Below, one piece after another: positions 32,703 through 34,666 of a DNA stretch of 37,473 bases (position 1 is the first letter of the stretch; the number at the start of each line of letters is the position of its first letter). Origin of the DNA: Pseudomonadota bacterium (GTDB taxonomy: Bacteria > Desulfobacterota > Desulfobulbia > Desulfobulbales > Desulfocapsaceae); contig JAHJLI010000287.1 of assembly GCA_018821785.1 (NCBI GenBank), forward strand, positions 1 to 37,473, written 5' to 3'. The position numbers and the translations under genes were made by a program. The notes under the pieces were generated by a model that saw only the letters and a program-made list of their open reading frames with translations, made no database searches and was not told where the DNA came from.

Positions 32703-33815
32703 TCAATGTAAACTAAATGTTTTGATAAACCGCCGATCTATCCAGTCTTTGATGGTAAATGCAAGTTTTCCGGCAAAGGAAATCGACCATTTTCCGAGAA
32801 CCCCCTGTCCATCACCCAGATTATATATGAGGAGGTAACTCCCCCCGGGTGAGAATTTTACCAGGGCCCGTCCTTCAAGACAGGCCAACAGGTTGTGGTA
32901 CAACACAGGATTCTGGCGAACCGCATAGACACCTACCTTATGCAGGGGCTTCTTGGCGAAATAGATACAGTCCCCGCCGCCGAAGATAAAGGGGTAGCGG
33001 ATCGACTGCAGGTATTCGTTCACCTGCAGTCCACCATCCGGGCCAATAGGCAGGCCGGAACGCGCAAAAATCTGCGATGGCTTGACCCCTACAGCGGCAA
33101 AGGTGACATCCGCCTGATACTCCTGGCCATTGTCGAGAAAGATCCGATCACTTTCAATGAGCCGAACATGCCCGACTTCAAGGATCTCAATTCCTTTCTT
33201 TATAAGTGCCGTTTTCACCAGGCGGCGAATCCGGGCTGGCCGCCCGGACATGAAAACTCGGCTGCCGAAGAGTTGAATGACAGGCATGGTCACGTCGTGC
33301 CTATGGCACAGCTGATGGATATTGCCGGCAATTTCAATGGCCGACGGTCCGCTGCCGATAACCGCAACCCGTATTTTCCTGTCTTTGGCCAGTTCGAGAA
33401 TTTTCTCTTTGGCCCGTTGCAGCTCCTCTATAGGCTTGGGGGTGAAAACATTGGGATAATCCCCTTTCACTATCTTTCTAGGAACATACGAACCGGCATT
33501 GCAGGACAGGACATCAAAGGGGATCTCCTCCTCCGTACCCTCAAGATACACCAGGCGTTTATGTGGATCGATCCGATAGGCCTTGCCGAGAATAAAGCGG
33601 CCACCCTGAGCCTCAACCTGACGGCGCGTGGCAAAGCTGATCTCTTCCGGCTGATAGGTCCCGCCCAGCATGCCCGGCCCCATGCCGCTGTAATAATGGC
33701 GTTCGGAAGGCTGAATGACGGTGACGTTAAAACCTTTGGCGATAATGTTTTGTATGTTGGCAAGGGTCACCATATGAGCATGACCTCCACCAATGAGAAG
33801 CAGCTGTTTTTTCAT
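32703..33815 (-). CDS. FAD/NAD(P) oxidoreductase of the SelD-associated type
   Basis: This 370-residue pyridine nucleotide-disulfide-type flavoprotein begins KKQLLLIGGGHAHMVTL, an FAD-binding GxGxxH-like motif with GGGHAH. YYSGMGPGMLGGTY, a second dinucleotide site (VIGSGPSAIEIAGN, about 165) and the FAD-anchoring GGGDCIYF follow. This combination is typical of the family (TIGR03169) found as the N-terminal half of some SelD proteins, while also occurring alone, as here; no SelD domain is present. A role in selenium or sulfur reduction is suggested by this relation and by the upstream Sec-rhodanese. It overlaps that gene's stop by four bases. NDH-2-like quinone reductase activity is an alternative. 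Confidence 0.87.
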   Translation of the reverse strand: MKKQLLLIGGGHAHMVTLANIQNIIAKGFNVTVIQPSERHYYSGMGPGMLGGTYQPEEISFATRRQVEAQGGRFILGKAYRIDPHKRLVYLEGTEEEIPFDVLSCNAGSYVPRKIVKGDYPNVFTPKPIEELQRAKEKILELAKDRKIRVAVIGSGPSAIEIAGNIHQLCHRHDVTMPVIQLFGSRVFMSGRPARIRRLVKTALIKKGIEILEVGHVRLIESDRIFLDNGQEYQADVTFAAVGVKPSQIFARSGLPIGPDGGLQVNEYLQSIRYPFIFGGGDCIYFAKKPLHKVGVYAVRQNPVLYHNLLACLEGRALVKFSPGGSYLLIYNLGDGQGVLGKWSISFAGKLAFTIKDWIDRRFIKTFSLH

Positions 33816-34666
33816 ATGAGATCCTGCTGATGATCGATATAGTGGCTCAGCCTGGCGATATGCGAACGTTCTTCCGCAGCAATCCGGCGCAGCACCCGCT
33901 CACTGCCGGCCTCTGTGCTTTTTTCCGCCGCACGGAGATACAGATCAAGCGCCTGCGCCTCAATCGCCATGGCCAGGGACAGGACTTCCGACTCGGAATC
34001 AAGGTCAGTCTTATACAGCTGCAGATACTCCTCTGTCGTCAGGCCGCCTTCCATCGCCGGTTCGGCAATTTTTTCGGCGAAATCGGCAACAGAGAGCTGC
34101 GTGCCGGTAATCTCGCCATAAAGCTGCACCAACTGCTCCTGGTGCAGGATTTCAATATCGGCCAGTTTGCTAAAAAGGGCCTTGGTCGCCTCCCGCACCA
34201 CTCGTTTTTGCATGGCGAGATAAAAATCCCTTAAACCCATTTCCAGGCCGAAACCGATAGTGATTGCCTCCTCGCCGCTCAATACCCGGTCAAACAGGTG
34301 CAGACCAGTATCTTCAGACCCCACAGCGACCTCTTTGTCCCAGGCCTTGATACCACCCGACAGATTATAAATCTTTTCAAAACCTTTTCCAGCCAGCATC
34401 TGCGCAGCAACCCTGCTACGCCCACCGATAGCTCAATAGATGACAATCGGCTTTTCCCGGGCAAGTTCGCCAAGGCGGTTCTCTAAGTCTCCGAGAGGCA
34501 AGAGTTTTGCGCCCGGCAAGTGCCCGGCCGCATATTCCTGCGGCTGCCGGACATCAAGAAAAAGTACGTCTCCGTCCGGGTGGTCGGCAACCAGTTGGTT
34601 GGCCTCCTCCCAGTTAATTGACGCGACAGGGGTGAAAAACTGCAGCCATTTCATAGCATGCTCCAA
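33812..34666 (-). CDS. Rhodanese/ferritin-like fusion, selenoprotein (Sec at catalytic position)
   Basis: Read through one in-frame TGA (34433-34435), this encodes 284 residues. Residues about 15-110 form a rhodanese domain (VLFLDVRQPQEYAAGHLPGAKLLPLGDL, then KPIVIY-U-AIGGRSRVAAQML). The TGA lies exactly where rhodaneses carry their catalytic Cys, so Sec78 would form the persulfide or selenide intermediate. From about 130 a ferritin-like four-helix domain follows, with a complete set of diiron ligands: Glu in GLEMGLRDFY, EILH, Glu in MAIEAQALDLY and EERSH. A SECIS-like hairpin follows the TGA. The frame is intact on both sides of the TGA. The gene is coupled to the FAD oxidoreductase by a four-base overlap. 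A pseudogene is the alternative, but less likely. Confidence 0.83.
34402..34421 (-). promoter_or_regulatory. Bacterial SECIS hairpin after the TGA at 34433
   Basis: On the minus strand GCGTAGCA pairs with TGCTGCGC (8 bp, one G-U pair) around the loop GGGT. The loop begins 19 nt after the in-frame TGA, with G at its first positions. This fits the bacterial SECIS model and lies inside the coding sequence, as required. Confidence 0.7.

Follow-up and report, generated by a model that had tools for sequence, protein, structure and literature searches.

We analysed a stretch of 37,473 nucleotides, hereafter the window, which spans positions 1 to 37,473 of contig JAHJLI010000287.1 of GenBank assembly GCA_018821785.1, a draft genome of the Desulfocapsaceae (Desulfobacterota). 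Its minus strand carries a cluster of three genes, of which the first has a predicted product that joins a rhodanese domain to a rubrerythrin-type ferritin-like domain (Table 1). The frame of this gene contains one internal TGA and no second disruption between its ATG and its stop codon. The TGA stands in the context VIY-U-AIGGRS, at the position of the rhodanese catalytic cysteine (Cys), where it appears to encode selenocysteine (Sec). The gene is followed by a flavin/pyridine-nucleotide oxidoreductase gene, which overlaps it, and by a gene for a protein with rubredoxin-like domains.

Table 1. Features of the gene cluster in the window (positions counted from its first base)
Feature	Position	Strand	Remarks
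Predicted rhodanese-rubrerythrin selenoprotein gene, 280 residues	33812..34654	minus	ATG at 34654, stop TGA at 33812-33814
In-frame TGA, predicted Sec residue 74, rhodanese catalytic position	34433..34435	minus	
Probable ribosome-binding site GGAG	34661..34664	minus	3' end 6 nt from ATG 34654
Rhodanese domain, residues 19-107	34334..34600	minus	Pfam 75.5 bits, cut-off 22.2
Rubrerythrin-type ferritin-like domain, residues 134-270	33845..34255	minus	Pfam 37.6 bits, cut-off 22.8
Bacterial SECIS-like hairpin, 8 bp	34402..34421	minus	Apical loop GGGU at 34410-34413, 19 nt after the TGA
Flavin/pyridine-nucleotide oxidoreductase gene, 370 residues	32703..33815	minus	ATG overlaps the upstream stop (ATGA, 33812-33815)
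Gene for a protein with two rubredoxin-like (RUBY_RBDX) domains and a DUF2231 membrane domain, 269 residues	31890..32699	minus	Third gene of the cluster

The catalytic codon and its relatives

A first-pass annotation of the window, made from the sequence alone, had already located the TGA in place of the rhodanese catalytic Cys codon and seen that the frame stays open beyond it; both observations hold. Its gene end, 34666, corresponds to a TTG, and the ATG at 34654 fits better, because a GGAG lies 6 nt upstream of it and because the matches in all of the 80 loci described below start at this residue, with M in each. With this start the Sec is residue 74, and not 78 as had been counted.

The codon at the catalytic column was compared across several sets of relatives. 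A search of 193 related genomes with the protein gave some match in 189, many of them to rhodanese only. The 18 best-scoring rows, the window's own included, have exactly one in-frame TGA each, and the catalytic codon of 30 loci from this search is TGA in 25 and Cys in 5. A scan of named genomes returned 287 relatives, and in the best 80, which were kept, we found TGA in 54 loci, TGC in 18, TGT in 8 and any other codon in none; this ratio of 54 to 26 is not an estimate for nature, because the 80 were picked for their resemblance to an alignment rich in Sec, and because Cys was spelled out in one of the two patterns used for the scan. A search with the ferritin part only, which excludes the codon, is a cleaner test of the column: 16 of 118 genomes of the phylum that are at least 90% complete match at E <= 1e-30, nine with TGA (the window's genome included) and seven with Cys. 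Finally, 20 more distant or hand-picked stretches have TGA (12) or Cys (8) at the catalytic site; they include a near relative (L150) and a Cys form broken by a TAG and a TAA (L151). Distant TGA forms occur with other active-site contexts, U-A-A-G-V-R-S, U-H-S-G-V-R-S and U-R-S-G-V-R-S, and L133-L143 represent further Sec subclades of the fusion, with the loops U-A-A-G, U-H-S-G and U-R-S-G. The same TGA is present in independent assemblies. Both forms are available as strains in culture collections, for example the Sec form in Desulfospira joergensenii and Desulfogranum marinum, the Cys form in Desulfosarcina widdelii and Desulfobulbus rhabdoformis.

These counts bear on the simplest alternative, a nonsense mutation or sequencing error in a Cys-type gene that would now be a pseudogene. 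TGA is formally a stop codon, TGC and TGT are one base away from it, and Cys codons occupy the column in 26 of the 80 loci. Yet TGA itself recurs in the other 54 and in several distant subclades, the window gene has no second disruption, and a hairpin accompanies the TGA. Conservation thus refutes the pseudogene in practice, and we give it next to no chance. The first-pass annotation had argued that chance would hardly hit exactly the catalytic codon, and had proposed an alignment of homologs as a check; the column turns out to hold only Sec or Cys, both in all 80 loci and in all 16 genomes of the search that left this column out. The fusion that it pointed out is real, but its supposed unusualness does not stand: this is a family and not a rarity, mostly found in Thermodesulfobacteriota, with repeated exchange of Sec and Cys.

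To follow this exchange and the hairpin we used one set of proteins, for which 130 sequences were pooled and 22 dropped whose first 235 residues were identical to those of another, leaving 108 (74 with TGA and 34 with Cys). Their tree was built with the active-site residue masked, by a quick method with no mixture model, and two long branches were flagged. It has at least 14 Sec/Cys changes, 11 of them forced by branches with a support of at least 95 in the Shimodaira-Hasegawa-like approximate likelihood ratio test (SH-aLRT), and gives these changes irrespective of their direction, gain or loss. We also considered a viral or plasmid origin. Among viral contigs 34 stretches fit a pattern and none was a relative, and none of 447 plasmid records had one place covering 80% of the query, which led us to reject such an origin.

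The same 108 proteins define the conserved residues of both domains. The U or C, G, R and S of the rhodanese loop CxxGxR(S/T) are present in all of them, the putative diiron ligands E138, E168, H171 and E232 are identical in all, and so is an extra glutamate, E202, in a MEGG motif; E262 and H265 are kept in 107, with one gap. From the rubrerythrin family we infer that E138, E168, H171, E232, E262 and H265 bind iron. The rhodanese and diiron ferritin-like domains named in the first-pass annotation both give Pfam matches over cut-off in the read-through product (the rhodanese score, for PF00581, being computed with C in place of U), and the Pfam score together with the conserved set of carboxylate and histidine ligands places the second domain in PF02915 (Rubrerythrin). 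The C-terminal rubredoxin domain of classical rubrerythrins was not found in the chain, for which Pfam gives Rhodanese and Rubrerythrin only.

An AlphaFold2 model of the full protein, made with 41 sequences, has a mean predicted local distance difference test score (pLDDT) of 80 and a predicted template-modelling score (pTM) of 0.76; its linker (residues 100-112) is of low confidence, and the distance from the Sec to the diiron site is not readable from it. The rhodanese domain of this model lies near its counterparts in NADH-dependent persulfide reductases and CoADR-RHD, in a beta-lactamase-rhodanese protein and in a persulfide dioxygenase-rhodanese fusion. The four-helix domain resembles the COG1633 protein 2oh3, and its listed fold neighbours also include nigerythrin, ferritins and Dps. 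Modelled by itself, the ferritin part reaches a higher pLDDT (88.6), but its Foldseek matches are weak, none of them at E <= 0.001, so that the fold assignment of this part rests on Pfam, VIA-align 2 and a profile search. The window protein stays below the cut-off of every NCBIfam model (NF041203, 40.7 bits against 115; NF045694, 24.6 against 805), and of the 22 families matched by a set of 41 proteins none, by its name, spans the whole fusion.

Hairpin and selenocysteine machinery

The bacterial selenocysteine insertion sequence (SECIS) model, as set out in PMC13188914, has a loop of 3-9 nt with a G in its first two positions, a stem of 4-16 bp, a distance of 16-37 nt from the UGA, and an energy of at most -7.5 kcal/mol. 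The hairpin behind the TGA of the window had been correctly described beforehand, with its 8 bp, its GGGT loop and its spacing; as a contiguous hairpin it has an energy of -11.8 kcal/mol, and it fits all four published constraints according to our own script, used in place of bSECISearch. Across the 108 genes the model fits 58 of the 74 with TGA and 6 of the 34 with Cys, and in both groups it fits 4% of synonymous recodings that use each gene's own codon usage. Relative to this synonymous null, the folding energy has a z of -2.21 for genes with TGA and of -0.73 for those with Cys (Mann-Whitney p 4e-9, the sequences being related and thus not independent). All six central pairs are present in 46/74 TGA genes compared with 3/34 Cys genes, and they covary (CGCAGC/GCTGCG, CGAAGC/GCTTCG). 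In the distant subclades L133-L143 the hairpin beats the synonymous null in 8 of the 11 loci, those with values listed.

The machinery for decoding is present as well. The source genome, a draft of 5.47 Mb in 315 contigs that is 94% complete, has SelA, SelB and two SelD genes, all over curated cut-offs, and a tRNA-Sec with anticodon tca, also over its cut-off; the sel genes that had been proposed as a check are thus all there. Both SelD genes (L020 on contig C175 and L021 on contig C156) have one in-frame TGA each, and the two copies are probably of the selenoprotein type. The tRNA-Sec model has a second match over its cut-off in this genome, which ARAGORN identifies as a tRNA-Cys with anticodon gca (L004 1499-1590, contig C289 12247-12337; 54.7 bits, cut-off 47). 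Sec-like tRNA-Cys species, which this tRNA resembles, were reportedly described by Mukai and colleagues in 2017.

The score of this tRNA-Cys on the tRNA-Sec model is what might speak for a UGA read as another amino acid, for example as Cys through an unusual tRNA or through sulfur taking the place of selenium, which would make the protein a Cys form in function. However, the anticodon gca pairs with UGC and UGU and not with UGA, a tRNA-Sec with anticodon tca stands ready together with selA, selB and selD, and the hairpin accompanies the TGA. We hold this reading to be very improbable.

In the window's order selA was found in 69 of 74 genomes, and the five without it all have selB and tRNA-Sec matches over cut-off. 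Three genomes with no selA match (G036, G057 and G019) consist of one or two contigs each, and selB and tRNA-Sec were found in them. Among the 69 genomes that have selA, 15 have its best match starting no more than 600 bases from the first base of a contig. Given that selA is so frequent, we rejected the sel genes as a divider between Sec-form and Cys-form genomes in this order. Most Cys-form genomes tested there have selA, so the Cys form in general is not explained by a lack of selenium use.

Several observations pull against Sec decoding. The strict contiguous-hairpin model is missed by 16 of the 74 TGA genes. The hairpin evidence is weaker once phylogeny is counted: of 11 independent Sec/Cys pairs, about five are in agreement by the stem, none is opposed and about six show no difference (median p 0.06), and by the energy threshold 3.9 are in agreement, 2.4 are opposed and 4.7 show no difference (median p 0.69). 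Some Cys forms, such as L040, retain the hairpin, as expected if Cys forms derive from Sec forms. Three Sec-form genomes (G012, G036 and G057) gave no selA match, with selB and tRNA-Sec over cut-off in each. With these points counted, comparison of sequences brings Sec decoding close to being shown, and in all probability the TGA gene is a genuine selenoprotein gene.

The oxidoreductase and other neighbours

In 66 of the 80 loci the match of an oxidoreductase homolog begins on the same strand, no more than 311 bases downstream, and in four the contig ends. The selenoprotein gene and the flavin oxidoreductase gene are a conserved pair, of which the first-pass annotation makes no mention, and since their stop and start codons overlap in the window they are probably translated together. 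The association does not follow the catalytic residue: the oxidoreductase lies downstream in 46 of the 52 assessable Sec loci and in 20 of the 24 assessable Cys loci, and these like proportions led us to reject a link specific to Sec. The third gene of the cluster has relatives of near full length in only three of the 80 loci (L053, L056 and L060), and was rejected as a general partner.

The best NCBIfam match of the oxidoreductase is TIGR03169 (Nterm_to_SelD), a family named for a domain in front of some SelD proteins; by its score, 249.2 bits against a cut-off of 310, the protein is related to this family but no member of it. The match raises the question of a role in selenium metabolism, in which the Sec-rhodanese would carry a perselenide and, with a SelD-associated oxidoreductase, supply reduced selenium to SelD. 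The selenouridine synthase MnmH also has a rhodanese domain, and MnmH models match weakly. But the score of the neighbour remains below the family cut-off, the diiron domain would have no obvious role, and three Scalindua genomes have the Cys form with an adjoining oxidoreductase and no selB over cut-off (completeness of these genomes not given). Delivery of selenium is therefore quite unlikely in our view, and because of the three Scalindua genomes the function of the system seems not to depend on selenium as such.

Other genes accompany the pair in some relatives. In Desulfosarcina widdelii, which has the Cys form, the gene after the oxidoreductase (L099 8008-9168) encodes a TsoY-family (seleno)protein (435.7 bits, cut-off 150), which may link the gene pair to the Tso selenoprotein group. 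In two further loci (L085 8010-10151 and L114 7984-10125) the pair is followed by a protein of 714 residues with a VTT membrane domain and a disulfide-oxidoreductase domain, and in L121 by an open reading frame of the same length.

Possible function and known systems

The catalytic residue of a rhodanese domain is the carrier of sulfane sulfur, and rubrerythrins draw electrons from rubredoxin to reduce peroxide; Sec surpasses Cys both as a nucleophile and as a leaving group. In our reading, SelB, tRNA-Sec and the hairpin put Sec at the rhodanese catalytic position. By analogy, polysulfide, persulfide or thiosulfate would there hand their sulfane sulfur to the Sec to give a selenenyl-sulfide (Se-S-). 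The conserved flavoprotein suggests a route for electrons from NADH, which would free the sulfide and hold the diiron site reduced, perhaps also, in the source genome, by way of the double-rubredoxin protein. The diiron site would in turn remove peroxide or oxygen before these could oxidise the Sec and the persulfide. Selenium would provide a quicker and more readily reduced catalytic residue, and the Cys form, which occurs both in genomes that use selenium and in others that do not, presumably has the same function.

The domain make-up and the gene pair are firm. For the substrate and the electron path, the reading that fits best is a system driven by NADH that would rid anaerobes of the sulfane sulfur and the peroxide they encounter, a tentative proposal to which we give somewhat less than an even chance. 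Several facts count against it. The mechanism is based on domain analogy; the oxidoreductase is absent from 10 of the 76 assessable loci, and was seen in just six of the 20 more distant stretches, downstream in L149 and L150 and upstream in the four of the U-H-S-G subclade. The survey of these distant stretches found no oxidoreductase at the Sec subclades L133-L135 and L139-L141. The oxidoreductase has a single near-invariant Cys, C283 in an FGGGDC motif (62 of 64). A selenium-dependent diiron enzyme, in which the selenenyl-sulfide on the Sec would be passed to, or turned over with, a diiron centre reduced by NADH and the flavoprotein, appears doubtful; no selenoprotein with such chemistry is described in the open-licence literature that we searched.

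The ferritin-like domain could also be mainly a ferroxidase or iron-storage module, the rhodanese sulfur serving the repair of iron-sulfur clusters. Two observations would fit this: MbfA and ferritin-like families of encapsulin cargo match weakly, and ferritins and Dps are among the fold neighbours. It accords poorly with a Pfam match to Rubrerythrin and with a conserved partner that is a flavin oxidoreductase and not an iron-sulfur assembly gene, and we consider it unlikely.

Rhodanese-domain selenoproteins had been said in the first-pass annotation to be known from metagenome surveys, and they do appear in the Sargasso Sea and Global Ocean Sampling surveys (PMC1088965, PMC2398784), as well as in two reviews (PMC9312934, PMC13188914). 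For marine Deltaproteobacteria, one study mentions a rhodanese-like domain that contains Sec, and a sulfurtransferase, with no further anatomy in its accessible part (PMC8318568). The words 'ferritin' and 'rubrerythrin' are absent from the main texts, supplements aside, of these five publications. In the accessible parts of the open-licence literature searched we found no account of a rhodanese-rubrerythrin or rhodanese-ferritin selenoprotein or of its gene pair, and the corresponding parts of PMC8346489, PMC5317093, PMC7376266 and PMC10599522 do not describe the fusion either. Rhodanese selenoproteins as such are known, and a member of the rhodanese-rubrerythrin family may have been listed earlier under the bare rhodanese name. 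A 2007 paper is said to have treated the selenoproteome of the Olavius algarvensis symbiont, and a prior listing of the fusion is possible there.

Among known systems, the rhodanese-like selenoprotein forms 1-5 of PMC13188914 are like the window protein in having Sec in the rhodanese domain, and its U-A-I-G fits the motif UxxG of forms 2 and 4, for which MBM9537886.1 and MCY3690685.1 are example accessions; these two forms are tabulated with PF00581 alone, a description from which the window protein would differ. Rubrerythrin and nigerythrin share with it the four-helix ferritin-like domain, with ExxH in helix 2 and in the last helix, but the window protein has no rubredoxin in the chain and a rhodanese in front, the rubredoxin-like domains being encoded by the third gene of the cluster. 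The NADH-dependent persulfide reductases and CoADR-RHD (PDB 3nta, 3icr and 6pfz), which have some of the nearest solved rhodanese domains, unite a pyridine-nucleotide flavoprotein and a rhodanese in one chain, whereas the window has them on two neighbouring genes; they have no diiron domain, and the window flavoprotein is closest to a different family, TIGR03169. They presumably have Cys where the window protein has Sec. The persulfide dioxygenase-rhodanese fusion (PDB 5ve3), also among the nearest, has Cys and not Sec, and we take the partner of its rhodanese to be a mononuclear non-haem iron enzyme of metallo-beta-lactamase type in place of a diiron four-helix bundle. TsoB (NF045694) is likewise a rhodanese-domain selenoprotein with a second domain; this partner is DsbD-like, and the score of the window protein on that model, given above, is far below the cut-off.

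Annotation that stops at the TGA would presumably break the gene up, leaving a truncated rhodanese and, apart from it, a ferritin-like part, and a widespread selenoenzyme of sulfate reducers is therefore easily overlooked. One chain would bring together selenium, sulfane sulfur and a probable diiron site, beside a conserved flavoprotein. The natural Sec and Cys versions in culture-collection strains make the reason why Sec replaces Cys directly testable, and the changes on the tree, at least 11, form a natural series on what selenium buys.

At the other end of the window, positions 1-630 hold the 3' end of a 23S ribosomal RNA (rRNA) gene (1-353) and a 5S rRNA gene (514-630), and the start of the contig looks broken at an rRNA operon.

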